A stretch of 64,000 nucleotides of DNA from an uncultured Saprospiraceae bacterium (GTDB taxonomy: Bacteria; Bacteroidota; Bacteroidia; Chitinophagales; Saprospiraceae): positions 1-64,000 of the forward strand of contig CALFUK010000033.1 in assembly GCA_937929945.1 (NCBI GenBank). Reading direction: 5' to 3'. The notes below the pieces were generated by a model. It was given only the letters and a program-made list of their open reading frames with translations, made no database searches and was not told the origin of the DNA. This document shows, in pieces, positions 5,172 to 55,082 of the stretch (positions are counted from its first letter, which is position 1; each line of letters starts with the position of its first letter). Made by a program: the position numbers and the translations under genes.

Positions 5172-5196
5172 CGCTCCATTTGATATACCGATCGTA

Positions 5197-5724: not shown

Positions 5725-5736
5725 AAAAGTAGCATT

Positions 5737-5931
5737 ATGGCTCATCCTAAGAGTAGGATCTCCAAGCAGAGAAAGCACAAAAGAAGAACCCACAAGAAGC
5801 TGACGGTTCCTCAAATCGCTGTATGCAAGACGACAGGTGAAGCTCACCTGTATCACAGAGCATACTATCACGACGGCGATCTCTACTATAGAGGAAAACT
5901 ATTGGTCCAAGCTGACGCAGACGTAGATTAA
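5737..5931 (+). CDS. rpmF: 50S ribosomal protein L32
   Basis: A 64-residue basic protein with the L32 N-terminus MAHPKSRISKQRKHKRRTH. Only one cysteine remains (AVCKTTGEAH) where zinc-binding L32 proteins have two CxxC pairs, so this is a zinc-independent form, common in Flavobacteria-like lineages. It sits directly behind the DUF177 gene, the widely conserved arrangement. Confidence 0.95.
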   Translation: MAHPKSRISKQRKHKRRTHKKLTVPQIAVCKTTGEAHLYHRAYYHDGDLYYRGKLLVQADADVD

Positions 5932-5953
5932 TCAGTGCTGATATAATCTATCA

Positions 5954-6334: not shown

Positions 6335-6342
6335 ACTCATCG

Positions 6343-7955: not shown

Positions 7956-7970
7956 AACAATACAAAATCA

Positions 7971-9230: not shown

Positions 9231-9241
9231 AAAGGATAAAG

Positions 9242-9282
9242 AGGTGCATACTTTGAGCTATTCGAGTATGCACCTTTTCTTT
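9242..9282 (+). terminator. Intrinsic terminator after metK
   Basis: Perfect 11-bp stem AGGTGCATACT/AGTATGCACCT with a 12-base loop, followed by a T-rich run (TTTTCTTT). Confidence 0.88.
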
Positions 9283-9332
9283 GACTCATATTAGACACTT
9301 CTTATCAAGCGAGATTCACTATTTTTGTATTC

Positions 9333-39275: not shown

Positions 39276-41297
39276 ATGAAATTTAGAAAGCAATTAGCCT
39301 TGGAAAAAAGGCAAGAAGCAGCTCGCTTAGCTTCAGAACGACCTCATCCCAGACACTACAGCAATGCTGACGAACACCGCTTCAGGCATACAAAGGAGAT
39401 CAGCAAATGCCACGCCCATGATCATTTTGACAAACACTCGGAGGATATTAAAAATCATAAAAAGAATGCGCTGAATATAAAAGGTCAGCCCTCCTATTTG
39501 GTGAGCTTCACGAAGGGCCTGCCCCATAATTACAGCACTGGACTGCTGGAGAATCCCGAGCACATGTCTTACTTTATCAAGGGCATAGACAGCGGTGATC
39601 CACGAGACTTCAGAGATACGCCCCTGGGGCAAGTCGATAATGTCGCATCCACCTCGCCATGCGTCTTAGAGGAGGGGTTCTGGAAATCCGAAAAGATTAA
39701 GAAAATAACCAAGCGGGAAAGAACAAAACAGAAAGAAAAGGGAGAACACCAAGATTTTCAGGTCAAGGCCAGGGCCTGGGAAAGTCAGAGTGCGGGTCTG
39801 TCGTGTGATCTCGAAGGTCCTGACGCTCAGGCCGTCACCATGCCACCCGCACCTACCTTGGGCAGCGAGGAGCTCACGGCTGAGATAGCCGAAGTGTATG
39901 CTCAGGCTCTGCTTAGAGACGTCCCATTCCATGCCATGTCCACAGGCAGCACTAAGAAGAACTTAGATGTGATCTGTACGGCTGCAGAAGATGTGAAGCA
40001 GGTGAAGGCATGTACAGATCAGCTTAGTAAGCTGAGCTGGTTTGATCCACAGGCCCAACTGCAACTTAGTGCGGCACAAGCAGCACGCAGAAGAGCCAGC
40101 ACACAGACCACTGCCTCAGCATTCAGAGGCATCACCAAGGGGGATGATATTGGTCCTTATCTATCACAGTTTTTATTGATTGGGAATCAAGGTATTAATG
40201 CAAGAGATGAAGAAAGAAGTCCCGCAGATGGCCTGATCTCCTATGGAGCTATATCCATAGATCAGCGAGTGCGTATAGCTGAGCCAGGCATAGATTACAT
40301 GACAGAGTGGGATGAGTGGTATGACGTGCAGAATGGGGCGGATCTTCGAGGGGAGGAAATATATGTAAAACCAAAAAAAGGTCAAATCTCACGGAGATTC
40401 ATCCATACGCCCAGAGATCTGGCTACTTACGTCCATTATGATGCGCTGTATGAAGCCTACCTCAATGCCTGCTTGATCATGCTGGGGAATGGAGTCAAAT
40501 TTGACGCTGGCATCCCCTTCCAAGAGCCAGATGACAGGGATCATCAGCAGGGCTTTGCCCACTTTGGTGGTCCACACATTCTGTCCCTGGTGACTGAGGT
40601 GGCGACCAGAGCACTGAAGGCTGTCAGATTTCAGAAGTATAATGTACATCGCAGATGCAGGCCAGAAGTTCTGGCAGCGCGCATACATAGAGCTGATATG
40701 CTCTCTCATATGGCGCCAGAATTAAAAGCCATGCGTGATGAACTGGAAAAAGGAAGCAAAAGCCTTCTGTCCAAAGTACGAGATCATAACTCCAAGCTGG
40801 GAGAAAAGACAGAGCTGCTGCCGATGGCTTTCTGCGAGGGCTCACCCATGCACCCTGCATATGGGGCTGGACATGCCACTGTCGCTGGGGCCTGTGTCAC
40901 CATTTTGAAAGCGTTCTTTGATCATCAGCATATTCTCTCGGTGGTCCCTGAGAAGGACGTAGCAGCATTGCCGAAAGACAAAAGACCAGCTGGATTCAAG
41001 CCAGCTCAGTACGCTTATGTATCCACAGAGGAAGGCACCAAGCTCCAAGCAATACCCGTCATGGATCAAGCCTGTAATCCGGCATATCTCACGGTAGAAG
41101 GGGAGCTGAATAAATTAGCGTCCAATATTTCCATTGGTCGTAATTGGGCTGGTGTCCACTACTTTACGGATTACTATGAGTCACTCCTGATGGGCGAAGA
41201 GATAGCCATCGGTATATTAGAGGAGCAGAAGTTAATGTATACTGAAAATTTCTCTATGACCATTCCACTCTTTAATGGAGATGCCATCAGGATTTAA
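39276..41297 (+). CDS. Vanadium-dependent haloperoxidase
   Basis: Would oxidise bromide or chloride with hydrogen peroxide. The 673-residue protein has the vanadate-binding motifs of the PAP2/haloperoxidase superfamily: Lys and Arg in KYNVHRRCRPE (about 454-464), the SPMHPAYGAGHATVAGA region (about 522-538) with the catalytic His, and Arg and the vanadate-coordinating His in GRNWAGVHYFTDYY (about 620-633). The usual Pro-Ser-Gly-His reads Gly-Ala-Gly-His, losing the serine. The first 200 residues are basic and variable. There is no signal peptide. Common in organisms living with marine algae. Confidence 0.88.
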   Translation: MKFRKQLALEKRQEAARLASERPHPRHYSNADEHRFRHTKEISKCHAHDHFDKHSEDIKNHKKNALNIKGQPSYLVSFTKGLPHNYSTGLLENPEHMSYFIKGIDSGDPRDFRDTPLGQVDNVASTSPCVLEEGFWKSEKIKKITKRERTKQKEKGEHQDFQVKARAWESQSAGLSCDLEGPDAQAVTMPPAPTLGSEELTAEIAEVYAQALLRDVPFHAMSTGSTKKNLDVICTAAEDVKQVKACTDQLSKLSWFDPQAQLQLSAAQAARRRASTQTTASAFRGITKGDDIGPYLSQFLLIGNQGINARDEERSPADGLISYGAISIDQRVRIAEPGIDYMTEWDEWYDVQNGADLRGEEIYVKPKKGQISRRFIHTPRDLATYVHYDALYEAYLNACLIMLGNGVKFDAGIPFQEPDDRDHQQGFAHFGGPHILSLVTEVATRALKAVRFQKYNVHRRCRPEVLAARIHRADMLSHMAPELKAMRDELEKGSKSLLSKVRDHNSKLGEKTELLPMAFCEGSPMHPAYGAGHATVAGACVTILKAFFDHQHILSVVPEKDVAALPKDKRPAGFKPAQYAYVSTEEGTKLQAIPVMDQACNPAYLTVEGELNKLASNISIGRNWAGVHYFTDYYESLLMGEEIAIGILEEQKLMYTENFSMTIPLFNGDAIRI

Positions 41298-41331
41298 TCT
41301 TAGAATCTAATTCTAAGGTAAGACACGCAGC

Positions 41332-41367
41332 TTAGTCAGCACTGGAAGGTGCTGGCTAATTTTTTTG
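41332..41367 (+). terminator. Intrinsic terminator after the haloperoxidase gene
   Basis: Stem TTAGTCAGCAC/GTGCTGGCTAA with one G-T pair and a 6-base loop, followed by seven or more T residues. Confidence 0.85.
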
Positions 41368-41600
41368 CTAAGTGGTTTCGAGTGTCATTTTTTGGTTAGC
41401 GCATTCTTGCACTTGTCCCACCATAGTAAGGTATTTCCATTAGCAGCCCTTTTTGTTTAGCCAGGATTAATGCACCTTCTAAATTTCCAACTACGTTCAC
41501 TTTACTTGCATGAGCTGCACTGTTTAATGATTGATAAATCAAATATTGATGCCGATCTTTAAGGATTTCATCTTCGAAGTCTGTGCGTACTCTGTGAGCT

Positions 41601-42060
41601 GTGGAAGCTTATGCCCACAATGAAAATTTGTCCGAAATAATGGGGTACTTTTTTAAGATTGGCAGAACTACCATGAGGGTCTGTGCTCGCAAAATGAAAA
41701 GTGTACAGCTGGACATGGATCAAGAGTTAGACCAACGAACCATCCAGCTGATCCGCAATAATCATCACATACGGCAGAGCGATGCTAAAGCTGATCCGAC
41801 CCAGAGACTGCCAGATATCTGCTAGCAACTCAGCAGTGTCGACCTCACCCGTGAGCTTCTTTCTGATGAATATCGACCCAGCTATCCGCGGGGATACAGC
41901 TATGGACAGTTTTGCCAAGAGATGAAGGGATTACTAAGCCGTCCAGAACGTACTCTGCGCATCGACCACAGTAGAGGTAGACACCATGCCAGTTGACTTT
42001 TCGGGTAAAAAACGGCCTTACTATGATCAGAAGTCAGGTGTAAAGCGATATGAATTGGCC
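41601..42060 (+). pseudogene. Broken IS21-type transposase gene (istA remnant)
   Basis: Three frames carry pieces of an IstA-like transposase. Around 41640-41760 a helix-turn-helix piece reads KIGRTTMRVCARKMKS. At 41838-41996 a second frame reads LTRELLSDEYRPSYPRGYSYGQFC, split here by its stop, the hallmark IstA segment before the catalytic core. A third frame from about 41970 continues with DTMPVDFSGKKRPYYD, the usual next segment. The rest of istA and all of istB are missing. The element is dead and marks a past insertion between the haloperoxidase and the alginate locus. Confidence 0.75.
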
Positions 42061-42093
42061 AGAATTGATCAGTTTTTCAAATATTATGATATA

Positions 42094-42137
42094 TTTGGTC
42101 AACCAATAATTGGGCGTTCAATTATTGGTTGCCCAAA
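42094..42137 (+). promoter_or_regulatory. Inverted repeat, candidate operator of the FadR-type regulator
   Basis: Perfect 13-bp arms CAACCAATAATTG and CAATTATTGGTTG with a 6-base spacer, extended by five further pairs beyond one mismatch. Each arm contains a TTGGT-(2)-CCAA type core similar to FadR-family GntR sites (TGGT..ACCA). No T-run follows, so it is not a terminator. It lies 24 bases ahead of the regulator start, suggesting autoregulation. Confidence 0.5.
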
Positions 42138-42160
42138 ATTATGCATGAAGGAATAAGTCT

Positions 42161-42856
42161 ATGTTAGAAAATCTAAGCAGAATAGAAGTAGAAAATCCAG
42201 TTGACTTAATCATCTCTCAAATCAGAGATCTCATCAGTTCTGGGAAGATCAAACCGGGAGAAAAGCTCCCTCCCGAAAGAAAGCTGGCCGAGCATTTTGG
42301 TGTCAGCCGCAATCAAGTCAGAGAAGCCATCAACAAGCTACAGATCTATGGTATCGTCAAAGTACAGCCACAAAGCGGTACGACAGTAACTGGGATCGGT
42401 ATCGTTGCGATTGAGGGATTGATCACTGACATCTTAAGAATTGAAAAGACTGACTTCAAGTCTCTGGTAGATACTCGAATTCTGTTGGAGAAAGAAGCTG
42501 CAAGATTAGCCGCGATTAACAGAAGCAATGATGACCTGATAAAGATGAACATTGCTTTGAATCACTACGAAGGCATACTACTGAACGATGGTTTCGCTAT
42601 AGAAGAAGACTTATTATTTCACTTGAAAATTTCTGAAGCTTCTAAGAATACAGTGCTCCGATCACTGATGATGATCATTACGCCCGACATACTTAAGAGT
42701 TTTACCAACTTAAAAGTCTGTAATGAGAATACCAATAAAAAAACCATTGATGAGCATCGCCATATTCTGGAGATGATCTCCGAAAAAAATCCTGATGGAG
42801 CCATCGAAGCGATGGAATTGCACCTCAAAGATGTCATAGAATTCAGCAATAAATAA
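42161..42856 (+). CDS. FadR-type GntR transcriptional regulator of the alginate locus
   Basis: A 231-residue protein. Residues 10-75 are the winged helix-turn-helix of GntR regulators (KPGEKLPPERKLAEHFGVSR, then VREAINKLQIYGIV). Residues 90-225 are the helical FCD effector domain. Regulators of this class sit at the head of many alginate and pectin loci and are usually repressors released by the sugar-acid intermediate (KDG or DEH); that role is inferred. It is 48 bases ahead of susC. An inverted repeat just upstream is its likely operator. Confidence 0.88.
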   Translation: MLENLSRIEVENPVDLIISQIRDLISSGKIKPGEKLPPERKLAEHFGVSRNQVREAINKLQIYGIVKVQPQSGTTVTGIGIVAIEGLITDILRIEKTDFKSLVDTRILLEKEAARLAAINRSNDDLIKMNIALNHYEGILLNDGFAIEEDLLFHLKISEASKNTVLRSLMMIITPDILKSFTNLKVCNENTNKKTIDEHRHILEMISEKNPDGAIEAMELHLKDVIEFSNK

Positions 42857-42904
42857 TCAATAATCTTTTAATAAATACAAAATTATCTATTCAGAAATAA
42901 ATAC

Positions 42905-45900
42905 ATGAAAAAATCTACAATTATGAAGAAACCTATTAAACTCTGGCTTTACAAAGCCAGCTTTATGCTGTGCCTCATGTTGTTTGGTATAGCATATACA
43001 CAAGCACAAGTGACAGGACAACTAACAGATGAAAACGGAGAAGCATTAATTGGTGCTAATGTCATGGTAGATGGTACCAATGTAGGAACCATCACAGATA
43101 TAGACGGTAGATTCTCAATTGATGCTCAAGAAGGTGATGTCTTATCAGTCAGTTATATTGGCTATACGACTCGAGAAATGGTAGTTGGTTCAGATCCCAA
43201 TATTAGTATTACATTAGTTCAAGATGCTGCTGCACTTGAAGAGGTCTTAATCGTTGGATATGGTACACGTAAAAGATCACACAATACTGGTGCCATCTCT
43301 CAAGTAGGTGGTTCAGAGGTCGCAGCCATTCAGTCGAGTCGAGTGGATGAAGCTTTAGGAGGAAAACTGGCAGGTGTCTTAATTCAAAATCAAGATGGCG
43401 CACCTGGCGCAGATCCTAAGATTCAAATACGTGCAGCATCATCTATTTCGGGTGATTCTAATCCATTGATCGTTGTTGACGGCTACCCGATATCTGGAAG
43501 TTTAGCCACTGTAAATCCTAACGACATAGAAAGCATGGAGGTATTAAAAGATGCTGCCTCTGCTGCTATATATGGTTCAAGAGGTGCTAATGGTGTCATC
43601 TTAGTCACCACTAAAAAAGGTAAGACGGGAAAGCCTACCATCAGCTATAATTCATATGTCAGCACTTCAAGTAAATATCGAGCTAATATATTAAAGACTG
43701 GTCCAGAATGGGCTGCATTCGCCAGAGAAGAAATAGCCGCTGGAAATTGGGACCTATCCCAAGTCGACCCTGATTTTGTAGAATTTAGATTGAATGCTTA
43801 TGAGAATTCGCCAGATGTATTGAGTGTAGAAGATTGGCTCTATAGAAGTGGTACTAGCACGAATCATGACTTCAGCATCAGCGGTGGTACGGACGACATC
43901 AATTACTTTGCGTCAGTAGGCTATCTTAATGCAGAGGGTATTGTCATTACTCAAGGCTTTGAAAGATACAATGCTCGTATGAATGTCGATGCGAAATTAG
44001 GCAAACGCTTCAAGGCCGGCTTAAATTTAAATGGATTCTTAGGAGATAGAGATATCGTAGGTCATGACTTAAGAGACCTTTCAAGAGCATACAGTGTTCA
44101 CCCAGTATATCATACAGAAGCTTCGATTGCATTTGTACAGCAATTAGATCAGCAAGCACAAGCTTTGGGACTCTCCCCATTTGACAATGGTTACAGAGGC
44201 GGTGACGCTCCATTTATCAATAGCATTCAGGACTTACAACCTGGAGACCAGGCTAATGACTGGCACTATGGAAGAGCCAATAATGGAATAGGAGGTTCTG
44301 GAGATGCAGGTCCTGCGACTAAGCTTGATAACACTGATCGATATCAAAAAACAGTATTTGGTAACCTCAGTTCATACTTACAATACGAGCTTATTGAGGG
44401 TCTAAATATCAAAACCGTACTGGGTGGAGATATGAGAGATACGGAAGACTTTTTCTCAAGAACGCTTGAATTTGATTCTAGAGCACGGACTAACCAAACT
44501 CGACTGAATACTGCGAATGTGAAAAGATCATCCGTGTTAAGTGAAACGACTTTGAACTATAGCAAACTAATAGGCAGACATGACATTGGCGCCGTAGCAG
44601 GAATAGAATTTCAAAATTTCTACATCAAAGGACTTAGTTTGAACGGGTCCAATGTACCATTCGGCCAACCACTGAATTATGCTTTATTAGATCCAGCAGA
44701 TATAGCAGTCTCAGAAAGAGATGAGACAGTATCCAGAAGAAGTGTTTTTGGAAGAATTAACTATGCGTTTGATAATCGTTATTTAGCCTCAGTCTCTGTC
44801 AGAAGAGATGGTGATTCACGATTCGGAGAAAATAATAGATATGAAATCTTCCCAGCTTTTTCCTTAGGATGGAATGTGCATAATGAATCATTTTGGAATT
44901 CTAACTTTCTTACTGATTTAAAGCTGAGATTTAGTAGAGGTTCACTAGGTACCACTTCTTTCTTAGGATCTTACGGCTCCTTGAGTTTGCTAAACCCACA
45001 AGCTACCATATTTGGAAATGGATTTTTGATTCCTTCAGATATAGCGAATCCAGATCTGACTTGGCAGACCAATACAGAGACTAACTTTGGAATCAATTTA
45101 GGGTTCTTGGGCAATCGATTTACTGTAGGCGTAGATTACTACACCTCAGATATCGAAGATATTTTGATTAATCAAAGTGTATCTGAAGTACTGGGTACTA
45201 CCTCAATCGTGCTTAATTCTGGAGACGTAAGAAGTTCTGGATTAGAGCTGGAAGTAGGTGCTGCAGTGATTAATAACAGCAAGCTCAGATGGAATGTCAG
45301 TGCTAACCTATCGACAGTCAATACAGAAATTACCGATTTAGGTGGACTGGACGAATTGCCTCAAGCTCAGTACGGACAGAGTGGAAGAGGTCCCATTTTT
45401 AGAAACTATGTCGGTGGCGAGATTGGTGAAATGTGGGGATTAGAAACCAGCGGATCAGTAGAAATGCGATACTTAGAAGATGGTACAAGACACCCTAACA
45501 ATCGTACTGGAGAATCATACGTCATTGATCAAAATGGTGATGGTGTCATCGACAGAACTAAGACAGTGGAAGAAGGTGGAGACTTAGTGAAAATAGGTCA
45601 AAATACACCAGATTTTTATTGGGGCATTAATAGTCAACTTGCCATAAGTGATGTCGATATATCGTTCCAGTTCCAAGGATCACAAGGTGGAGAAGTATAC
45701 AACATTGATCCCCTGTATTATGGCTCTGAGTGGAGTGGTAGGCTAGTAGACAGCTTTGATGAGGATGGAGATGGTCTTGCAGATCACAACGGAGAGCACT
45801 ACATCGGCAACAGAAGGCAGACTGATTATGGCATCCAGGATGCCTCGTACATTGCTTTAAGAAATCTCACTATAGGCTACACGCTTAATTCTGACATGAC

Positions 45901-46105
45901 TAATAAAATAGGCTTAGGCTCTGCCAGAGTATATGCAGCAGCGACTAACTTATTATACTTGATGGGATCAGATTACACCTCTTATAATCCAGAAGGTGTA
46001 GAGATAACTAATGGTGGCTACCTAGGCCCAACCACATATGGTGTACAAGTAGGCGCAAGCCCAGTGGTCAGAAGCTTTACTGCTGGAGTAAATGTTAAAT
46101 TCTAA
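42905..46105 (+). CDS. SusC/RagA-type TonB-linked outer membrane transporter
   Basis: A 1066-residue outer membrane barrel. After the signal peptide (ending TQAQ) comes a carboxypeptidase-regulatory-like domain (about 35-115), then a TonB box region (EEVLIVGYGT), the plug domain (about 120-240, with NPLIVVDGYPI and AAIYGSRGANGVILVTTKKGK, split here for length) and the barrel. With SusD it imports oligosaccharides using TonB energy; the locus implies alginate oligomers. It is 11 bases from susD. Confidence 0.95.
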   Translation: MKKSTIMKKPIKLWLYKASFMLCLMLFGIAYTQAQVTGQLTDENGEALIGANVMVDGTNVGTITDIDGRFSIDAQEGDVLSVSYIGYTTREMVVGSDPNISITLVQDAAALEEVLIVGYGTRKRSHNTGAISQVGGSEVAAIQSSRVDEALGGKLAGVLIQNQDGAPGADPKIQIRAASSISGDSNPLIVVDGYPISGSLATVNPNDIESMEVLKDAASAAIYGSRGANGVILVTTKKGKTGKPTISYNSYVSTSSKYRANILKTGPEWAAFAREEIAAGNWDLSQVDPDFVEFRLNAYENSPDVLSVEDWLYRSGTSTNHDFSISGGTDDINYFASVGYLNAEGIVITQGFERYNARMNVDAKLGKRFKAGLNLNGFLGDRDIVGHDLRDLSRAYSVHPVYHTEASIAFVQQLDQQAQALGLSPFDNGYRGGDAPFINSIQDLQPGDQANDWHYGRANNGIGGSGDAGPATKLDNTDRYQKTVFGNLSSYLQYELIEGLNIKTVLGGDMRDTEDFFSRTLEFDSRARTNQTRLNTANVKRSSVLSETTLNYSKLIGRHDIGAVAGIEFQNFYIKGLSLNGSNVPFGQPLNYALLDPADIAVSERDETVSRRSVFGRINYAFDNRYLASVSVRRDGDSRFGENNRYEIFPAFSLGWNVHNESFWNSNFLTDLKLRFSRGSLGTTSFLGSYGSLSLLNPQATIFGNGFLIPSDIANPDLTWQTNTETNFGINLGFLGNRFTVGVDYYTSDIEDILINQSVSEVLGTTSIVLNSGDVRSSGLELEVGAAVINNSKLRWNVSANLSTVNTEITDLGGLDELPQAQYGQSGRGPIFRNYVGGEIGEMWGLETSGSVEMRYLEDGTRHPNNRTGESYVIDQNGDGVIDRTKTVEEGGDLVKIGQNTPDFYWGINSQLAISDVDISFQFQGSQGGEVYNIDPLYYGSEWSGRLVDSFDEDGDGLADHNGEHYIGNRRQTDYGIQDASYIALRNLTIGYTLNSDMTNKIGLGSARVYAAATNLLYLMGSDYTSYNPEGVEITNGGYLGPTTYGVQVGASPVVRSFTAGVNVKF

Positions 46106-46116
46106 AAACTAAAACA

Positions 46117-47430
46117 ATGAAAAATTTATATATAATACTGCTGTCATTTGTGCTGATCACAGCATGCGAAAATGACTTGGACCAATTTCCGCCAAACATT
46201 GCAAGCTCAAATTCTTTAACCAGCTATGCAGGTGTACTCAATGCGGCATATTTTTATCAGCATTCAGGAGCGACACCTATGGCAGTCATGGGAGATTTTC
46301 GTGCGGATAATGCACGGATGGAGGAAGAGCCATATCCGTCATTTGATAGATACAATGGTGATTTGGTGGATATGGAAGACCAATTTTTCGGTCCGTTTTA
46401 CTCGGGTTTATACAAGTCCATATTAAGTGCTAACAATGTGATTGATAATTCTACGGATGCTACCGAAGTTGGAGAAGCAAGATTTTTACGGGCTCTGTCA
46501 TATTTTAAGTTAGTTAGAGTATTCGGTGATGTGCCGGTGAATTTATCAGCTTCACCAAGTGTATCTGATGATTCTATCTTAGCGAGACAATCCGCTTCAA
46601 GTGTATATAGCACAGTGATCATTCCAGATCTGGAGGCGGCCATAGCTGCACTAGGCACTGAGATCGTAGGTGGAAGAGCATCTAAACATGCTGCTCAAGG
46701 TATGCTGGGTAAAGTGTACGCGCAGTTAGGTGATTTTGGAAGTGCTGAGTCACAGCTCGCTGCAGTTGTCAATGGAGCAGGCGCTGCTGGAATTAGCTTG
46801 CAAGAAAATTTCGCTGATATTTTTGGAGAAGCTAATGATCTAAATTCGGAAATCATTTATGCCACTCAAATATCAAGTTCTATTTCAGATGAATATGGCT
46901 TTACCGAGTTTTGGTCATGGTCAGGTGGACTTGATACTAAGTCACTCATGCCATTGGATCCAGACTTAGTTGCTGCTTTTGATGCGAGCGAGGGAGATTT
47001 AAGAAGAGATGTCACCATCAATACTGAGACGATGGCTTCACCAAAATTTCCACAAACTGGAGGTCCTGATCATGATTGGATCGAATTGAGATTAGCAGAT
47101 GTCATACTCTTACATGCAGAGGCTCGTAATGAAAATGGTGCATCTCCTGATGAAGTACTTAGTCTATTAGACCCTATCAGGACCAGAGCTGGATTAGCTC
47201 CTTTAGATCCTGCAGTGTTAAATTCACAAGCATTGGTAAGACAGGCTATCCAGGACGAAAGAAGACTTGAGTTAGCTTTTGAAGGTCAGAGATGGTTTGA
47301 TCTGGTCAGAACAGGTACAGTCAATGCTGAGATGGGAGAGTCAATCGGAAGTCAGTATCACCTGTTTCCAGTGCCTATTTCTGAAGTGTTAGCAAGCTCT
47401 GGCGTCATTACACAAAATGAAGGGTACTAA
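46117..47430 (+). CDS. SusD/RagB-type surface glycan-binding lipoprotein
   Basis: A 437-residue lipoprotein (signal MKNLYIILLSFVLITAC). It has the SusD pattern: an N-terminal TPR-rich helical part with EARFLRALSYFKLVRVFGDVP, and the conserved C-terminal QDERRLELAFEGQRWFDLVRTG region. It forms the lid of the SusC barrel and captures the oligosaccharide. A hairpin 38 bases after its stop may reduce transcription of the genes behind. Confidence 0.95.
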   Translation: MKNLYIILLSFVLITACENDLDQFPPNIASSNSLTSYAGVLNAAYFYQHSGATPMAVMGDFRADNARMEEEPYPSFDRYNGDLVDMEDQFFGPFYSGLYKSILSANNVIDNSTDATEVGEARFLRALSYFKLVRVFGDVPVNLSASPSVSDDSILARQSASSVYSTVIIPDLEAAIAALGTEIVGGRASKHAAQGMLGKVYAQLGDFGSAESQLAAVVNGAGAAGISLQENFADIFGEANDLNSEIIYATQISSSISDEYGFTEFWSWSGGLDTKSLMPLDPDLVAAFDASEGDLRRDVTINTETMASPKFPQTGGPDHDWIELRLADVILLHAEARNENGASPDEVLSLLDPIRTRAGLAPLDPAVLNSQALVRQAIQDERRLELAFEGQRWFDLVRTGTVNAEMGESIGSQYHLFPVPISEVLASSGVITQNEGY

Positions 47431-47467
47431 TCAATAATAAAAAATTAGATAGTTTTTTCATGCTTTA

Positions 47468-47496
47468 GTAGGAGAAGCCACATGGTCTTCTCCTAC
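47468..47496 (+). terminator. Hairpin between susD and the transporter gene
   Basis: Perfect 10-bp stem GTAGGAGAAG/CTTCTCCTAC with a 9-base loop. There is no strong T-run after it, so it is more likely a partial terminator or an mRNA-stabilising hairpin that sets susCD expression above the downstream genes. Confidence 0.55.
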
Positions 47497-47519
47497 ACTT
47501 TATAAGGCAAACCAGAAGA

Positions 47520-48791
47520 ATGTCTACGATAACAAAAGAGAAAAATAAAATAGGCAATTTTCTGATTGCACTGGGCCCAGCCTTCATGGCGATCGGCTAT
47601 ACCATCGGTACAGGTAGCGTGACCTCTATGGTCGTAGCAGGCAATAATCATGGGATGAAACTATTGTGGGTCTTAATACTAAGTTGTCTATTCTCTTGGG
47701 TACTCATGGAAGCTTATGGCAGATATACCTTAGTGACAGGACAGACAGCTCTATTTGGTATAAGAAAGAATATCACCGGAGGTAATTTAATTGCTATCCT
47801 CATCATTATAGGTATCACCATTGGTCAGTGGAATTCTTTGATCGGCATTTTAGGAATCTCAGCTAATGCCATGTTTGAAGCGCTCTCACTATTCTTTCCG
47901 GCACTCGTGCCATATAAATACATGACAGTTCTGCTGATCGCCATTGTGATTTTAGCAATCATGTACTTCATACTATGGCAAGGGAAATATAGCATACTGG
48001 AGAAAGTATTAATATTCTTTGTTTCTATTATGGCTATTTCTTTTGTGCTCTCATTATTCTTTGTAGTCCCCAGTCCGAGAGAGATCGCCAGTGGTTTAGT
48101 CCCAACAATTCCACAAGTAGCAGGAGGCAAAATGCTGGTTGCAGCATTCGTCGGGACAACAATGGCAGCTGCCACTTTCTTATCCAGATCGCTTTTTGTC
48201 AAAGGTAAAAATTGGAATGTCGATAATCTCTCTGATCAAAGTAGAGATGCAAAAATAGCAGCTGTGCTCATTTTTGTTATCAGTGGTTCTATCATGGCAA
48301 TTGCAGCTGGCTCACTTCATGGTACAGGCCAAACGATAACCAAGGTATTTGATATGGTCAGTACATTACAACCGATTCTGGGGAATTTTGCTGTCACGGT
48401 ATTCTTATTCGGTATATTGGGTGCTGGTCTATCTTCGGTTTTCCCTATCTTGCTGATAACACCGATCTTAATTGCTGATTATCAATCTGGAGACCTTGAT
48501 TTACAATCAAAGCAGTTTAAGATCATTACTGGTGTCGCGTGCTTGATAGGTCTTACTGTCCCTATCTTCGGAGCCAATCCTATTAATGCTCAAATTTTGA
48601 CTCAAGTTTTTAATGTATTCGTTTTGCCTTTAGTTATTATCTCAATCATTATATTGGTCAATAGGCCCAAGCTGATGGGAAAACATAAAGCTTCTTTATT
48701 TCTTAATACCGGTATGATAACAGCTTTGATTTTTGCCACTGTCATTTCTTATACTGGGATTGTCGCCATTTTAGATTCGCTCAACATTTGA
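47520..48791 (+). CDS. Nramp-family transporter homologue lacking the metal-binding motifs
   Basis: A 423-residue inner membrane protein with about 11 hydrophobic segments. The opening FLIALGPAFMAIGYTIGTGS and the G..LLW pattern place it in the Nramp/NRMT branch of the LeuT-fold transporters. The canonical DPGN of helix 1 is replaced by IGTGS, and the MPHN of helix 6 is replaced by TMAAAT (about 208-215), so it probably does not carry manganese or iron. Its place between susD and the alginate lyase suggests a role in uptake of a uronate or a counter-ion. Only 4 bases separate it from the lyase gene. Confidence 0.8.
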   Translation: MSTITKEKNKIGNFLIALGPAFMAIGYTIGTGSVTSMVVAGNNHGMKLLWVLILSCLFSWVLMEAYGRYTLVTGQTALFGIRKNITGGNLIAILIIIGITIGQWNSLIGILGISANAMFEALSLFFPALVPYKYMTVLLIAIVILAIMYFILWQGKYSILEKVLIFFVSIMAISFVLSLFFVVPSPREIASGLVPTIPQVAGGKMLVAAFVGTTMAAATFLSRSLFVKGKNWNVDNLSDQSRDAKIAAVLIFVISGSIMAIAAGSLHGTGQTITKVFDMVSTLQPILGNFAVTVFLFGILGAGLSSVFPILLITPILIADYQSGDLDLQSKQFKIITGVACLIGLTVPIFGANPINAQILTQVFNVFVLPLVIISIIILVNRPKLMGKHKASLFLNTGMITALIFATVISYTGIVAILDSLNI

Positions 48792-48795
48792 ATCA

Positions 48796-50826
48796 ATGAA
48801 AAGAAAAACTAATAGTTTACTCTCTATACTTGTGATTCTTGTAATCATATGTGCCTGCTCTACCAAGCCGGATAAAATAAATGTACCGACTGATGGCGCT
48901 ACCACTTATGCCAGCGCAATCATGCCCCTATTAAAAGAGTTCAAACTCATTTTAGGCGATGGAACGAATGCGGGCATACCAGAAAATTTTGAAAACAAAG
49001 ACTTCTTTTACACCACCAATGAGGATGGACAAGACTGGGTCGTCTATAAAACACCCAATGCTGGCAATACGCATGGCACATCTAATAATACCAGGACCGA
49101 ATTAGCTCAAACCAAGAAATGGTCACCTATGGCAGGTGGAAAGCTATCAGCGACATGCAAGGTCATGAATGTGTCTCCTACTGGTGATCCACGGGTAGCT
49201 GCATCTTATTCTGTCGTGGTAGGTCAGATACATAGTGCAGACGGTCACGAAAATGAACCGCTGAAAATATTTTACAAAAAATTTCCAGGGCATTCTAAAG
49301 GTTCTGTCTTTTGGAACTACGAGATTAATACTGCGGGTGATGATAATTCTGGAAGATGGGATTATTCTTACCCTGTATGGGGCTATGACTTTTCCGAAGT
49401 CAGTACTGATAAAAATGTATTCCCTGCAGAACCCAAGGATGGTATCGCTTTAGGAGAAGCCTTTAGTTATGAAGTAGAAGTAAAGGATGGTATCATGACT
49501 GTGAATTTCACAAGCGAAGGACACGAGACCAAGTCATTCACAAAAAATCTCATCCAGTCCGAATATGCGACCAAAGCAGATATGCCGCAGCAGGTCAAAG
49601 ACTTATTCGTACCCATAGGCCAGGATGGTGTAGAGCGTGCCAATGCTTATGCAGAGGAAGGACTATTCTTTAAGCAGGGATCCTACAATCAGACTAATGG
49701 TAAAGACCCGATCGTGAATAGAGTATGGTGCGCTGGTGCTGAGACGCATGGTGGAGATCTCAAAAAACAATATGCTGATGGTAACTATGCGGAAGTCTGG
49801 TTTAAGCAGGCAAGTGTAGTGATATCTGATGAAGCCATATCTAACGAAGGCTACTTCTCTGCTAATGATGGCTTAAGTGCGAAAATAGTCTACCCCAGTG
49901 AGGTCATACCATTCATGGATAAATTTAAAATGCTGATGGGTGATGGTGCATCAGTTGATGAATTAGTAGACTTCCAGGATCCAGACTTTTTCTATACTGT
50001 GATCGATGGCACGATGCGCTGGGTCGTCTATAAGACACCTAATGCTGGAGTCACTTCCAAGAACTCAAGCAATACCCGCACAGAGCTACACGAAAAAAGA
50101 GAGTGGACGCCAGAAGAAGGCGGTAAGCTGACTGCTGACTGCAAAGTGATGCATGTATCAACTTCTGGTGATGCCAGAGTCGCCGCTTCTTATTCCGTCG
50201 TCATCGGCCAAATCCACAGCGGCGAGGGCCATGAGAATGAGCCTTGCAAAATATTCTACAAGAAATTCCCAGGTCATACCAAGGGTTCAGTCTTTTGGAA
50301 CTATGAGATCAATACTGCAGGCGATGACAATTCAGGTAGATGGGATTATTCTTATCCAGTATGGGGTCACGATTTTTCAGTTGTCGGTACAGAGCCAGCA
50401 GATTTTCCGCCTGAGCCATCGGACGGCATAGAACTGGGAGAGGAATTCTATTATGAAATCAATGTGCATGAAGGCATCATGTATCTCACTTTCAAAAGCG
50501 AAGGTCATCCGACCAGGACGTTCACAAAGAATTTAATACAATCAGAATATACTTCTAAAGAAGATCTGCCTGAGCAAACCAAAAACTTATTCGTACCAAT
50601 AGGTCAGGATGGTGTCGAACGCCCCCAAGCTTACGCGGGAGAATTAAATTATTTTAAACAAGGTGCCTACAATCAGACCAACGGTAAAAGTCCAGAGTCA
50701 AATATGGTCTGGTGTGCTGGTGCAGAAACCTACGAAGGTGATATTGCAAAACAGTACGCTAATGGTAGCTACGCTGAAGTATGGTTTAAAGACGCATCGG
50801 TAGGCGAAAGCTCCAATCCTAAATAA
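48796..50826 (+). CDS. Tandem-domain PL7 alginate lyase lipoprotein
   Basis: A 676-residue lipoprotein (lipobox Cys21). It carries two complete polysaccharide lyase family 7 domains, roughly residues 35-340 and 363-668. Each has the RTEL motif (Arg100, Arg428), the QIH motif (Gln144-His146, Gln472-His474) and the F-K-Q-G-x-Y-N-Q motif with catalytic Tyr (Tyr297, Tyr625). All offsets are exactly 328, showing a gapless internal duplication. QIH, rather than QVH, is usually linked to activity on G-containing alginate. Several segments are almost identical between domains (KGSVFWNYEINTAGDD). It cleaves alginate by beta-elimination, on the cell surface or in the periplasm. Confidence 0.93.
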   Translation: MKRKTNSLLSILVILVIICACSTKPDKINVPTDGATTYASAIMPLLKEFKLILGDGTNAGIPENFENKDFFYTTNEDGQDWVVYKTPNAGNTHGTSNNTRTELAQTKKWSPMAGGKLSATCKVMNVSPTGDPRVAASYSVVVGQIHSADGHENEPLKIFYKKFPGHSKGSVFWNYEINTAGDDNSGRWDYSYPVWGYDFSEVSTDKNVFPAEPKDGIALGEAFSYEVEVKDGIMTVNFTSEGHETKSFTKNLIQSEYATKADMPQQVKDLFVPIGQDGVERANAYAEEGLFFKQGSYNQTNGKDPIVNRVWCAGAETHGGDLKKQYADGNYAEVWFKQASVVISDEAISNEGYFSANDGLSAKIVYPSEVIPFMDKFKMLMGDGASVDELVDFQDPDFFYTVIDGTMRWVVYKTPNAGVTSKNSSNTRTELHEKREWTPEEGGKLTADCKVMHVSTSGDARVAASYSVVIGQIHSGEGHENEPCKIFYKKFPGHTKGSVFWNYEINTAGDDNSGRWDYSYPVWGHDFSVVGTEPADFPPEPSDGIELGEEFYYEINVHEGIMYLTFKSEGHPTRTFTKNLIQSEYTSKEDLPEQTKNLFVPIGQDGVERPQAYAGELNYFKQGAYNQTNGKSPESNMVWCAGAETYEGDIAKQYANGSYAEVWFKDASVGESSNPK

Positions 50827-50860
50827 TGAACTATTATATATAAAAACTGAAATAGATTAT

Positions 50861-51250
50861 ATGAGTTTACACGAAAACATAAAGCCAACAAAAGAATATT
50901 GGATAAACGCTGACACAGAGTGGGAAGACGTAGGTGGAGGCATCACCAGGCAAATCATGGGCTATGATGATAAGATCATGCTGGTCAAAGCCAAATTCGA
51001 AGTAGGTGCAGTCGGCCAGCTCCACAAACATTATCACTCGCAAGTGACCTACGTAGAAAGTGGCGCATTTGAAATGACGATTGGTGACGATATTCGAATG
51101 ATAAAAAAAGGAGATTCTTACTATATCCCTCCACACGTCATGCATGGATGTGTGTGTAAAGAGCCAGGCATTTTGATCGATGTATTCAGTCCTGCCAGAG
51201 AAGACTTTTTAGGTCATGAGCAATTAGATTTAAAATCATGGCCAAAGTAA
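50861..51250 (+). CDS. kdgF: KdgF-type cupin, unsaturated uronate linearising enzyme
   Basis: A 129-residue cupin. The metal ligands are visible in HKHYHSQVTYVESG (His, His, Gln) and in PHVMHGCV (His). KdgF proteins speed the ring opening of the 4,5-unsaturated monouronates made by alginate and pectin lyases, giving DEH (4-deoxy-L-erythro-5-hexoseulose uronate). It is cytoplasmic. It overlaps the MFS gene by 13 bases, which couples monomer uptake to its conversion. Confidence 0.9.
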   Translation: MSLHENIKPTKEYWINADTEWEDVGGGITRQIMGYDDKIMLVKAKFEVGAVGQLHKHYHSQVTYVESGAFEMTIGDDIRMIKKGDSYYIPPHVMHGCVCKEPGILIDVFSPAREDFLGHEQLDLKSWPK

Positions 51251-52551
51251 CTGCAAAGAAAGTTGGTGGATTAAGATGGTGGGTCATTGGCCTAATTGGA
51301 TTAGCCACTATGATTAATTACATTGATCGCCAAGCCCTAGGCGTATTGTGGCCTGATATAGCAGCAGACCTATATCCAGATGAAGATAGTGACGGCAGAA
51401 AAGCGATCTATGGATGGATCACCGGAAGCTTTATTTTTTTCTATGCGATGGGGCAAGCTTTGTTCGGAAAAATATTTGACTGGATAGGGACCAGATTAGG
51501 CTTTGCCTTATCTATAGGCGTATGGTCTATTGCGACCGCACTTCATGCCTTTGCCAGCGGCGCTTGGTCATTTGCCATTTTTAGATCTATCCTTGGTGTC
51601 GCCGAAGCTGGTAACTGGCCAGGGGCAGCTAAAGGAAATGCCGAGTGGTTTCCGACTCATGAACGAGCATTTGCACAGGGGCTGTTCAACTCGGGAGCAG
51701 CGATCGGTGGCATCATAGCCATTCCAGCTATTGCATTCATGACAATTTATTTTAGTTGGCCAGTGATATTTATTGTGGTCGGTCTTATAGGTCTCCTATG
51801 GTTGATCCCTTGGTTTTTGATCGTCAAAGCACCACCCCAATATCACCCTAACATTACTGAAGCAGAACGCCAGTACATCCTCAGTGGACAAATCTCCAAA
51901 AATGAAGATGAATCTAATGAGGACGAGTATAATCCCACGACAGTGCAATTAATGGCTCACAAAGAGAGCTGGGGTGTCATCTTAGCTTCAGCGGCCATCG
52001 ATCCTATATGGTGGTTATTCATAGTATGGATTCCCATTTATCTCAATGGCGTGTATGGCATGGATGTGAAAACCATTGGCATCTACGGATGGGTGCCCTA
52101 CGTCGGAGCCATGTTTGGTGCATGGTTTGGAGGCTTACTAGCACAAAATAGAATCAAGGCTGGATGGGACGTCAATAAGACGCGTAAGTGGGTCATCACC
52201 CTTGGGTGTTTGATCATGTTTCCTTCCTTCTTTCTATTGATGAATCCTGGATCACCTACGACTGCTGTGATTATTATGGCTGTCATCTTGTTTGGCTTTC
52301 AGACTGCTATCGGCAATGTACAAACACTTCCGAGTGATTTATTCGGTAAGGATTCCGTAGGTACCTTATCAGGTATCGCTGGTATGGCAGCTAAGTTGGG
52401 CGCATTTGGCCTGACAGTCTTGGTGCCTATACTCACGGCAGGAGACAATTACACCCCAGCATTTTATGTGGGAGCAGCGCTGACCGTCATTGCCTTACTT
52501 GCAGTATGGGGACTTATACCAAAAGTTGAAAAAGTACAACCAATATTTTGA
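51238..52551 (+). CDS. MFS transporter, hexuronate/ACS family
   Basis: A 437-residue permease with about 12 transmembrane helices. The first helix carries MINYIDRQALGVLWP, and the following loop shows the MFS A-type motif (GKIFDWIGTRLG), as in ExuT-like anion:cation symporters. In alginate loci such proteins import unsaturated uronate or DEH across the inner membrane; this substrate is inferred. It overlaps kdgF and is 71 bases ahead of the SDR gene. Confidence 0.9.
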   Translation: MAKVTAKKVGGLRWWVIGLIGLATMINYIDRQALGVLWPDIAADLYPDEDSDGRKAIYGWITGSFIFFYAMGQALFGKIFDWIGTRLGFALSIGVWSIATALHAFASGAWSFAIFRSILGVAEAGNWPGAAKGNAEWFPTHERAFAQGLFNSGAAIGGIIAIPAIAFMTIYFSWPVIFIVVGLIGLLWLIPWFLIVKAPPQYHPNITEAERQYILSGQISKNEDESNEDEYNPTTVQLMAHKESWGVILASAAIDPIWWLFIVWIPIYLNGVYGMDVKTIGIYGWVPYVGAMFGAWFGGLLAQNRIKAGWDVNKTRKWVITLGCLIMFPSFFLLMNPGSPTTAVIIMAVILFGFQTAIGNVQTLPSDLFGKDSVGTLSGIAGMAAKLGAFGLTVLVPILTAGDNYTPAFYVGAALTVIALLAVWGLIPKVEKVQPIF

Positions 52552-52622
52552 ATAGAAACTGATACAGAAGTGTAAATATTTAACTTTGAACCTTAAAGAA
52601 AAGAAATACAAAATTTAGAAAT

Positions 52623-53384
52623 ATGAATTTAGAAGGAAAAGTAGCAATTGTAACTGGTGCAACCGGTGGTATCGGATTAGAAGTTGCAAAACAACTAGGT
52701 AAGCATGGATGCACGGTCATTCTAAATGGGAGAAATGATGAAAAAGGGGCTGATGCTCTACAGCAATTAACCGACCAGGGCAGCACTGCAGAGTATCACG
52801 GATTTGATGTCACTGATGAAGCTGAAGTCAGCAAACATATCAAAGCCATTGGTGAAAAATATGGTAAGATAGATGCGCTCGTGAATAATGCTGGTGGACT
52901 GGGTGGTAGATCAAGATTTGAGGAAATGACGACTGAGTTTTACAGATCCGTCTTAGCACTTAATCTAGATTCCGTATTCTTTGCATCTAGAGCAGCTATT
53001 CCGTATCTCAAGAAAGGGACTCACCCGACCATCATCAATTTCACATCTAATGCCGCATGGAATGCGGGAGGACCTGGTGCTGGCATGTATGGCACATCCA
53101 AAGCTGGAGTCCATACCATTACAAGAGCATTAGCAAAAGATTTGGCAGAGTATGGCATTCGAGTTAATGCTGTATCTCCTGGAACCATTGATACTGATTT
53201 TCATATTGGTATCAAATCGACTAAGCCAGAAGTATTCAAGTCTTGGGCTAATAATATCATGTTAGGCAGATTAGGGAAGCCAGAAGATGTAGCAGGTGTT
53301 GTTGCTTTCTTAGTCAGTGGAGAAGCATCATTCATAACTGCAGAGACAATCCAAATAGGTGGCGGACAGGCCTTAGGTATTTAA
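52623..53384 (+). CDS. SDR family oxidoreductase, probable DEH reductase
   Basis: A 253-residue classical short-chain dehydrogenase: TGATGGIG cofactor loop, NNAGG, catalytic Ser in NFTSNAAW, and YGTSK with Tyr and Lys. The ILNGRN after strand 2 has an Arg that suggests NADPH preference. In alginate loci this enzyme reduces DEH to 2-keto-3-deoxygluconate; the role is inferred from position. A TAACTTTG element at 52581-52588 may give it an extra promoter. It is the last intact gene of the locus. Confidence 0.88.
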   Translation: MNLEGKVAIVTGATGGIGLEVAKQLGKHGCTVILNGRNDEKGADALQQLTDQGSTAEYHGFDVTDEAEVSKHIKAIGEKYGKIDALVNNAGGLGGRSRFEEMTTEFYRSVLALNLDSVFFASRAAIPYLKKGTHPTIINFTSNAAWNAGGPGAGMYGTSKAGVHTITRALAKDLAEYGIRVNAVSPGTIDTDFHIGIKSTKPEVFKSWANNIMLGRLGKPEDVAGVVAFLVSGEASFITAETIQIGGGQALGI

Positions 53385-53430
53385 TCGTTAATTAAATTGA
53401 TCAAAACAGAATAATCAATTCAACGGTTAA

Positions 53431-53624
53431 GTAGCAGTGGTTACTGGAGGTGGAAGAGATAGTGGTGGATCAATATTCATCGAGCTTGCTGAAGAAGAAG
53501 CTTAAGTCTTGGTGAATTATAGTACTTCAGAACTGGCTGCTCAGGAAACAATGGATCAAATAAGATCGCAGGAGGTGAAGCGAATGCAGTGAAAGCACAC
53601 TGCTATGGTAAATCACCTCAGTAA
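53431..53624 (+). pseudogene. Decayed second SDR gene fragment
   Basis: The frame from 53431 reads VAVVTGGGRDSGGSIFIELAE, then a stop, then VLVNYSTSELAAQETMDQI, which is the start of an SDR enzyme (cofactor loop and strand 2). A frameshift then moves to AGGEANAVKAHCYG, the usual next segment. It lacks the catalytic part and a start codon. It is clearly a different SDR from the intact one upstream and marks decay at the right edge of the alginate locus. Confidence 0.75.
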
Positions 53625-53706
53625 ACTACGGTGCAGAGTCAATACTTAGCACACGATCAGCAACATCATTTTTTTCTTGGCAAAAGGAGGAAAAATAGCG
53701 GAGCTA

Positions 53707-53747
53707 TTTGAAAATCCCCTCCCAACCGAAGGGGAGGGGTTTTCAAA
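53707..53747. repeat. Long GC-rich hairpin
   Basis: Arms TTTGAAAA-T-CCCCTCCC and GGGAGGGG-TTTTCAAA pair over 16 bases with one bulge around an 8-base loop. Symmetric flanks give T-runs or A-runs on both strands, so it may act as a terminator or be a mobile palindromic repeat. The similar CCCCTTGAAAAGGGG hairpin lies near 63849. Confidence 0.6.
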
Positions 53748-53800
53748 TACTGGAGCGGACGTAAATATTCATAACTTACAGTCAACATCAGACCCAAATT

Positions 53801-53909
53801 AAAGTGTATGGTTTATGCTAACTGTCAGATGAAGTAGTGGCTATTACACATCATGCGCAAAGTAAAGCGTATGTTTTATGCTAACTGTCAGGTGAAGTAG
53901 TGGCTATTA
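53801..53909. repeat. Two direct copies of a 46-bp repeat
   Basis: Copies at 53801-53846 and 53864-53909 differ at four positions and are separated by 17 bases. Both contain TTTATGCTAACTGTCAG and GAAGTAGTGGCTATTA. The region carries no gene. Confidence 0.75.
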
Positions 53910-53984
53910 GAATTTAAGCAATTGACACAGTTATTGAAATGCTTCCGTCCTATCTAGTATTATCGGTTGCTCTTCTTTTATTCA

Positions 53985-55082
53985 TCATGGCGTAAATCTT
54001 TCAAATGTTTCACCATTGAATTTATATACTCCCGTTTCATGTGTGCCAAGCCAAATTTGGTCTTGTTTGTCCTTGTAAATAGAGAACAGTGAGATGTCTT
54101 GACCATTATCTTTTATTGGATAATGAGTAGACTCATTTCCATCATATCTCCATACTCCTCGATTGTATGTTGCCATCCAAATATCACCCTCCTTATCTTT
54201 TATAGCAGACATGAAATAAATATAATCTTTTCCGTCTGCGGATTTAATATCATCAATGCCATTTTCTCTTTCGTATTTGACTAAAACACTTCCATTTTCT
54301 TTTATACTGTCAGGAGAAATGTTGAATCTATAGCGGGTATTACAGAACCAGAATTTACCTTTTTCGTCTTCCAGAATGGAGCGAATACCAAACGAGCCCC
54401 CTTCTGGCGTATTTGTCAAGTGGTCTTCAAATAGCCAACTAAGTGAATTTCCATCATAGCGGCAGACGCCAAAGTTTGATGTACCAAACCACATTTTTCC
54501 TTTACTGTCTTTGTAAATATAATATACATCATATGGACTCCAGGATTTATTTGGAAATCTTGCGAAATACTCGTCAGCCATATAGTGTTTGGGGAATTTA
54601 AGCTGATAAAGGTTTTTTCCGTCATACCGATAAGGTCCTTTATCTCCATTTTTTCCAAGAATACCAAACCATAAATCATCAGTTTGGAGTTTCCAATTAT
54701 CACTTGAAGATTTGCTTGGAATGGCGGTCAACGTCGAAAAAGTATGTCCATCATACTTATTTATACCTTCCATATTTGAAATGTAAATATTTCCTTGTTT
54801 GTCCTCTTGAATGTCTCTGATGCGATTGCTGCTTAATCCATCCTTTGTTGAAAAATTAGTAATTGTCTTTCCGTCATAACAAAATACACCATCTGTGTCA
54901 CTACCATACCAGTAGTCACCGTTTGCAGCTTGAAAAACAATCCAAATACTATTACTGAGTTCTGAAACCGTGTCGCATAAAACAACTATAGAATTGTGGT
55001 TTGCATTGTTAGTGGAATTTTGTCCGTTGCATGAAGTCAATACAATCAAGATGTAAAAACTAAGAAGTGTATTTAATTTCAT
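53985..55082 (-). CDS. Two-component-regulator-type propeller lipoprotein
   Basis: A 365-residue lipoprotein (lipobox VLTSC at about residue 18). The rest is a series of Reg_prop-like blades, each with D..G..W.G....GV..YDG and a Trp or Phe; about seven blades can be traced (YWYGSDTDGVFCYDGKTI, MWFGTSNFGVCRYDGNSL and others). Unlike hybrid regulators it has no Y_Y_Y, histidine kinase or DNA-binding domain. It is an exported sensor-like or binding propeller. The gene is visibly richer in A and T than its neighbours, suggesting recent acquisition. Confidence 0.82.
   Translation of the reverse strand: MKLNTLLSFYILIVLTSCNGQNSTNNANHNSIVVLCDTVSELSNSIWIVFQAANGDYWYGSDTDGVFCYDGKTITNFSTKDGLSSNRIRDIQEDKQGNIYISNMEGINKYDGHTFSTLTAIPSKSSSDNWKLQTDDLWFGILGKNGDKGPYRYDGKNLYQLKFPKHYMADEYFARFPNKSWSPYDVYYIYKDSKGKMWFGTSNFGVCRYDGNSLSWLFEDHLTNTPEGGSFGIRSILEDEKGKFWFCNTRYRFNISPDSIKENGSVLVKYERENGIDDIKSADGKDYIYFMSAIKDKEGDIWMATYNRGVWRYDGNESTHYPIKDNGQDISLFSIYKDKQDQIWLGTHETGVYKFNGETFERFTP

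Follow-up and report, generated by a model that had tools for sequence, protein, structure and literature searches.

Nramp-related proteins are already known as a set, most of it uncharacterised: in a figure legend of PMC12873925 all groups are given as uncharacterised except two, the NRMT-like group and G-motif 3 (MntG), the only ones with a proposed role there. Databases call such genes divalent metal transporters, in catabolic operons too. YcsG (B. subtilis), a member of the same superfamily, was reported to be a Mn2+ importer (PMC10448178). The Nramp-family protein PxpT (C. glutamicum) is required for growth on 5-oxoproline, which gives an organic-acid role in this family a precedent, and metal transport was not excluded by its authors (PMC13274462). 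EleNRMT is a Mg2+ uniporter, and NrmT genes have been described in an M-box or MgtE-domain context (PMC4072509). The inner-membrane routes for alginate products listed in PMC13390454 are Pit-ABC, SusCD-MFS, porin-SSS and TTT, none of which, as listed, includes an Nramp-fold carrier. A "Nramp, metal-ion transporter" has been drawn in Alteromonas alginate clusters (PMC6431674, Fig. S3 legend), the label standing there without motif or function analysis in the available part of the text.

The window analysed here is a 64,000-nucleotide stretch of a contig from an uncultured Saprospiraceae bacterium. It contains a co-directional run of GntR, SusC, SusD, Nramp, PL7, cupin, MFS and SDR genes, with the following features.

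42161..42856, + strand: GntR/FCD-family regulator (Pfam)
42905..46105, + strand: SusC-like TonB-dependent receptor (Pfam)
46117..47430, + strand: SusD-like lipoprotein (Pfam)
47520..48791, + strand: Nramp-related transporter gene (ORF call, PF01566, model and fold comparison)
47604..47618, + strand: helix 1 motif I29-G30-T31-G32-S33, which replaces IDPGN (alignment)
47826..47837, + strand: helix 3 Q103-W104-N105-S106, a polar stretch that hardly varies within the close clade (alignment)
48153..48176, + strand: helix 6 break G212-T213-T214-M215-A216-A217-A218-T219, which replaces GATIMPHV (alignment; predicted break at 215-216)
48186..48188, + strand: R223, aligned with MntH His216 and unchanged throughout the clade rows seen, a candidate carboxylate ligand (alignment)
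48796..50826, + strand: PL7 alginate lyase of 676 aa with two tandem Alginate_lyase2 domains (Pfam)
50861..51250, + strand: cupin, probably KdgF-like (uronate ring opening), by its Cupin_2 match and, for the KdgF name, its context
51238..52551, + strand: MFS permease (best NCBIfam model D-galactonate transporter, under cut-off)
52623..53384, + strand: SDR oxidoreductase of the type adjoining the MFS gene, probable DEH reductase

The initial annotation had placed the Nramp gene between susD and the alginate lyase, and the coordinates agree: 89 bases separate the SusD stop (47430) from the Nramp ATG, and the lyase ATG (48796) follows after a four-base gap. Names such as KdgF, KdgK, KdgA and DehR rest, throughout, on family and context. 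The 676-aa double-PL7 lyase has cluster members of similar length in several Saprospiraceae loci. On the 5' side of the locus, a 673-aa ORF (39276-41297) matches neither Pfam nor NCBIfam models at E<=0.001. Elsewhere in the same genome a second alginate cluster was found on contig C30 (PL7 at 20195, PL6-family match at 21139, heparinase/PL17-type domain at 24511), and the only further PF01566 match, under cut-off, lies on contig C46.

The ORF at 47520-48791 starts with ATG and encodes 423 aa; it is intact and full-length, and a broken gene was thereby ruled out. Its sole Pfam family is PF01566 (Nramp; E 4.5e-61, 207.3 bits vs a cut-off of 29.8), matched over residues 34-392 and profile positions 1-356 of 357, which places it in the superfamily. 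The protein also clears the cut-off of the NCBIfam model "Nramp family divalent metal transporter" (84.7 bits, cut-off 50), whereas the MntH and nramp subfamily models score far under their cut-offs. While a single-sequence AlphaFold model was unusable (pLDDT 44.6), the AF2 model built on an alignment of 72 of 80 named relatives reached pLDDT 83.0 and pTM 0.84 and places a break in helix 6 at residues 215-216. Foldseek ranked EleNRMT first (TMq 0.81), followed by DraNramp entries (0.71-0.79, one partial chain 0.62), and placed the YcsG model (9a52), ApcT and AdiC lower. Among the families in its list, VIA-align gave DraNramp a Z score of 43.8 (385 aligned, 2.7 A), EleNRMT 41.5 and AdiC 29.1. 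The window protein is thus predicted to have the LeuT-type Nramp fold.

Column-by-column alignment with E. coli MntH puts G30-T31-G32-S33 at D34-P35-G36-N37 of helix 1 and A216-A217-A218 at M209-P210-H211 of helix 6; in addition, T213 stands at A206 and R223 at H216. The metal-coordinating residues of MntH in these two helices, D, N, M and H, are accordingly G, S, A and A. The proton-path residues of MntH helix 3, D109 and E112, are L107 and I110, and the column of E112 holds I, V or L in 103/103 IGTGS rows. The arginine pair of MntH helix 9 reads K331-Q332, in a gapped region of the alignment. Loss of the helix 1 DPGN motif to IGTGS, as first noted, is confirmed. For helix 6, where MAAAT had been read in place of MPHN, the loss stands and the register does not, since M215 aligns with MntH I208 and MPH corresponds to AAA. 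Restoration of either motif by correct alignment was ruled out in the same comparison.

Judged from the alignments, the substitutions are not noise, as they are common to relatives: I29-G30-T31-G32-S33, G212-T213-T214 and R223 recur in all ten rows of an alignment of the window protein and nine relatives. R223 is found in 103/103 IGTGS rows of a wider alignment, near-copies included, and in 3/39 rows without IGTGS, the three being close-set rows with a varied or cut-off motif. Within the close set, R223 occurs in 82/82 rows and IGTGS in 79/82, and helix 3 keeps Q103 in 80/82, N105 in 80/82 and S106 in 82/82. The 80 named relatives were fetched by peptide patterns covering both motifs, so that motif conservation there is partly selection; neither pattern extends to R223.

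Scanning species genomes gave at least 519 confirmed relatives, and the best 80 of these 519 are 56-75% identical to the window protein. These best 80 include, in Bacteroidota, Saprospiraceae MAGs (the nearest), the Flavobacteriaceae Zobellia, Arenibacter, Maribacter and Winogradskyella, a Labilibaculum MAG and Cyclobacterium, and, in Gammaproteobacteria, Alteromonas, Catenovulum, Gayadomonas and Gilvimarinus. In the tree, made by a quick method from 28 of the 82 close rows and 60 others and with long branches elsewhere, an IGTGS clade of 52 rows, 50 of them with both IGTGS and the arginine, has an SH-aLRT of 99. On this tree and alignment, the window protein belongs to a supported clade marked by helix 1 IGTGS and an arginine at the place of MntH His216. 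By the definition given in the available part of PMC12873925, its sequence makes it Nramp-related and not a canonical Nramp. It shares with the G-motif groups as outlined there the Pfam family, the fold, the lack of DPGN and MPH, a glycine-type helix 1 and a non-polar helix 3 proton path. The initial remark that this subgroup has no characterised role agrees with open-licence PubMed Central print, including the legend cited above (PMC12873925).

The window locus and those of the best 80 of the 519 relatives (81 close loci) were compared by calling and clustering genes and mapping their order, the clusters being named by Pfam from one or a few members each. Counts were obtained by profile search of all six frames with HMMs built from the close loci, so that detection is favoured there; controls were scored with the same HMMs. 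A lyase or KdgF/KdgK/KdgA was found in 70/81 close loci vs 0/20 loci of other-motif Nramps from the same phylum (Fisher p 1e-13, overstated since the loci are related and relatedness was ignored). The proposed tie to alginate use is thus borne out. Individually, alginate lyase is present in 51/81 close loci, KdgF/KdgK/KdgA in 55/81, SusC or SusD in 59/81 and MFS in 40/81; among the 56/81 that hold at least 15 kb, 50/56 have a lyase or KdgF/KdgK/KdgA. The controls, hand-picked from 47 lower-scoring places, comprise 18 IGPGT and two (L/F)GPGS proteins, and a SusC match occurs in 3/20. A phylum sample gave a further 19 loci, seven of them with a lyase or KdgF/KdgK/KdgA: L033-L036 and L039 from the close group, L037 with a 54% identical relative, and L046, where the match is aldolase-type only. 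Four genomes (G130, G158, G162 and G234) each gave one control and one of these 19 loci. In a sample of 296 genomes, a PL6-family match at E<1e-30, a threshold set after the list was seen, occurs in 7/8 genomes with a copy of >50% identity vs 27/288 others (Fisher p 1e-6, relatedness again ignored). The association is not strict: 11/81 close loci have neither lyase nor DEH genes nearby, and the genomes behind five of these 11 gave no PL7-family match at all.

Linkage is kept in many marine bacteria, across several gene orders in both Bacteroidota and Gammaproteobacteria. At least four orders recur among the close loci: SusCD-Nramp-lyase (the window type); GntR-MFS-SDR-KdgK-PFK-KdgA-Nramp, with some variation, in Zobellia, Maribacter and their relatives; PL6-PL7-[GntK-6PGD]-Nramp-PL7-SDR-PL17-KdgF-SusCD in Winogradskyella and kin; and SDR-Nramp-GntK-PL6, beside LacI, PL7 and a TonB receptor, in Alteromonas and kin. 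Same-strand neighbours within 250 bases were scored in 80 of the 81 loci, the Nramp gene of L057 having been missed by the ORF caller. On the 5' side they are KdgA (22), a gluconokinase-6PGD fusion (14), SusD (8), SDR (8), PL7 (7) or none (10), and on the 3' side PL7 (16), PL17 (8), gluconokinase (5), PL6 (4), others (13) or none (28). Two Nramp copies share one alginate locus in L092, where they lie side by side, and in L059, where the second copy reads VGTGS.

The alginate tie is confined to the close clade. A sister group at 38% identity has SusC-type receptors and GH20 genes in its loci, a sodium symporter in five and a GH2 cluster in six, of which the tested member is a beta-glucuronidase (PRK10150, 616 bits, cut-off 544); none of these loci has an alginate lyase. 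The concern of the initial annotation, that homologues might lie mostly outside polysaccharide loci, is therefore answered for the close relatives, which sit inside alginate loci, whereas the 38% group does lie outside them, in other polysaccharide loci. Of more distant clade members, the 54% relative in L037 adjoins genes for 2-keto-3-deoxy-galactonokinase and a KDPG-type aldolase, an enolase-superfamily gene stands at a distance of five genes from a 53% relative, and others lie near amidohydrolase, NagB-like and 3-keto-sugar genes. In L037, the Nramp gene is preceded by four consecutive genes of one cluster (4630-9907), the tested one with BNR repeats. A 36.5% relative occurs in 546/5,426 complete E. 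coli genomes, about a tenth. One E. coli accessory run between dnaB and qorA (L140:3600-9297) contains CoA-transferase, enoyl-CoA hydratase, Nramp-like and FAD oxidoreductase genes. An 834-kb "E. coli plasmid" record with dnaB, alr, tyrB and dusA looks chromosomal (L132, CP054241.1 799196-816424); the Nramp relative on it, which lacks an annotated gene, gives a match in two pieces.

Outside the clade, two halobacterial IGPGT Nramps lie directly before hydantoinase/oxoprolinase A and B genes (L134:4983-9819, L138:4983-9811), and a Mesobacillus Nramp follows CoA-transferase and thiolase genes. Around the Nramp copies of Pseudoalteromonas, Ketogulonicigenium, Caballeronia and Halocatena no clear organic-acid operon was seen. 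Organic-acid settings thus recur across Nramp-related proteins, though not everywhere.

With moderate confidence, the window protein can be read as an inner-membrane secondary transporter in which the metal and proton sites have been lost and whose imported cargo is a uronate or another sugar acid. This reading draws on the alginate/DEH linkage of the close loci against the controls and on sugar-acid neighbours (beta-glucuronidase, 2-keto-3-deoxy-galactonokinase, KDPG-type aldolase and adjoining GntK). With the acidic divalent-cation ligands gone and an arginine fixed nearby, sugar-acid import would be the simplest account. Genomic linkage alone does not name the cargo; a monomeric uronate is most likely, either unsaturated uronate/DEH or saturated mannuronate/guluronate. 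Direction, ligand roles and coupling ion, like the substrate, are what we infer. SusC/SusD and the lyases would carry oligo- and monouronates into the periplasm. The backbone of the broken helices 1 (G-T-G-S) and 6 (G-T-T), together with Arg223 and polar residues of helix 3, may then bind the carboxylate and hydroxyl groups at the place that Mn2+ occupies in canonical Nramps. By alternating access the acid would pass to the cytoplasmic KdgF, SDR, kinase and aldolase enzymes, in parallel to the MFS permease. A GSG break in helix 1 is a feature of APC carriers, and IGTGS resembles it, as an analogy and not a proof. In AdiC, the backbone amide after the serine of this break binds the substrate carboxylate (PMC5877779).

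Several observations count against the importer reading, among them the 11/81 close loci without lyase or DEH genes and the lyase-free loci of the 38% sister group. Arg223 lies five residues past the position of MntH His211. Some clade members accompany 3-keto-sugar, amino-sugar or fatty-acid type genes and not uronate genes, and ahead of a distant Halocatena Nramp lies a gene for a sodium:calcium antiporter. Among the 11 genomes with the strongest PL6 matches, five carry a >50% copy and six do not. The alginate route also already has a carrier, since each of the 13 genomes searched, out of 16 behind named loci, contains an MFS relative 43-72% identical to that of the window; in four genomes this MFS gene and the Nramp gene share a contig, about 12-18 kb apart. 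While 32/70 alginate/DEH loci have no nearby MFS gene, several of them on short contigs, the 13 genomes ruled out the idea of Nramp as sole carrier in MFS-less loci. With both present, Nramp and MFS probably divide transport between them, whether according to monomer type, to affinity or to coupling ion.

A definite side pathway is proposed in one sub-case of uronate import: the protein carries saturated uronates or derived D-gluconate to gluconokinase and 6-phosphogluconate dehydrogenase, yielding ribulose-5-phosphate, and the MFS permease carries DEH. The small kinase beside the Nramp gene in Alteromonas is a GntK-type gluconokinase (TIGR01313 over cut-off, one member tested), and the Winogradskyella-type 5' neighbour is a GntK-6PGD fusion (TIGR01313 and TIGR00873 over cut-off, one member tested). 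The two GntK clusters occur in 20/81 close loci, each time directly adjoining the Nramp gene and nowhere else in the 81 loci. KdgA adjoins it in 22 other loci, giving 42/81 with a KDPG-type aldolase or gluconokinase next to the gene, and no locus has both KdgA and GntK. The GntK link suggests that some hosts use the protein for gluconate itself or for a uronate later converted to it. The fusion was seen in alginate loci at L106:8089-9966 and, by cluster, at L101:8085-9965 and L129:8077-9957, and may point to alginate catabolism with a gluconate branch. Three SDR types are seen among the close loci at 52-56% linkage, of 41 (MFS-adjoining, that of the window included), 23 and 17 members, plus three singles; the latter two types merge at 48% linkage. 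The separate 17-member type, found beside lyases or the Nramp gene and mostly in GntK loci, also fits a gluconate branch. L-guluronate reduced at C1 yields D-gluconate. On the other hand, no GntK lies near the Nramp gene in 61/81 loci, that of the window included, and the window's genome gave no match to GntK-6PGD, in a search run without positive control. Lyase action, moreover, leaves only one saturated residue per original alginate chain. A fungal route from uronate through gluconate to gluconokinase is described in the accessible text of PMC6353982, and no print on such a bacterial route was found in open-licence PubMed Central. As an explanation for the clade this sub-case is unlikely, although it survives better than the other alternatives.

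Slightly weaker is the view that the protein carries a divalent cation (Mg2+, Ca2+ or Mn2+) in the manner of NRMT or MntG and is co-regulated with alginate use, either because alginate and its oligomers bind or deplete cations or because lyases need them. EleNRMT is the best Foldseek match and the second by VIA-align, and scores 52 bits by phmmer; YcsG/MntG is a reported Mn2+ importer (PMC10448178), and the NCBIfam divalent metal transporter model is passed. The Alteromonas gene labelled as a metal-ion transporter in PMC6431674, from the alginolytic systems of Alteromonas sp. 76-1 and relatives, is by its description there probably of the same family and setting, and Alteromonas loci were found here too (L108, L111). 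However, the helix 1 Asp that EleNRMT keeps (phmmer alignment with 7qia) is Gly in 103/103 clade rows, which sets the clade apart from NRMT, and an Arg has been gained near the site. An Rfam scan of 41200-54000 gave no match at E<=1, hence no M-box, a feature not required of every NRMT; neither the M-box nor the MgtE-domain context described in PMC4072509 was seen at the window locus. The aldolase or gluconokinase genes next to 42/81 copies also speak against a cation. Compared by description and fold only, PxpT and YcsG share with the window protein the superfamily and a place in an organic-acid catabolic operon, but have pxpABC as neighbours in their published accounts, in contrast to GntR, SusCD, PL7, cupin, MFS and SDR here. 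A cation role is therefore less likely than sugar-acid import. Of the substrates offered by the initial annotation, uronate gains from the alginate/DEH linkage, and a divalent cation loses from the absent helix 1 Asp and the lack of an Rfam match.

Export of a by-product (organic acid overflow) or counter-ion, or a sensor role, is improbable: the MFS permease could suffice for import and the E. coli relative keeps company with CoA-transferase and enoyl-CoA hydratase genes, but gene order pairs Nramp with uptake and first catabolic steps, and the protein has no further Pfam domain.

Returning to sugar-acid import, it can be proposed tentatively, at somewhat under even chances, that the whole clade turned from metals to sugar acids, a helix 1 glycine break as in amino-acid carriers and one invariant helix 6 arginine taking over from the metal site in an inner-membrane uronate importer, with some hosts feeding the gluconokinase/6-phosphogluconate branch. 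The locus kind and the chain of lyase, KdgF, DehR, KdgK and Eda are as outlined in PMC13390454, and a uronate importer of this fold would be unlike the four routes for alginate products listed there. New here are the clade with its arginine signature, the controlled and broad alginate linkage, the gluconokinase link and the finding that MFS is not replaced. If the reading is true, marine alginate turnover includes a carrier step overlooked so far, and the name metal transporter would be wrong for a wide group, including the gene in 546/5,426 complete E. coli genomes. Through the arginine, the helix 1 motif and genetics, the reading is open to direct test. If it is true, Nramp-related proteins would retain the APC superfamily's role with organic substrates, or have regained it, and the Nramp family would become a test case for one fold switching between metal cations and organic anions.
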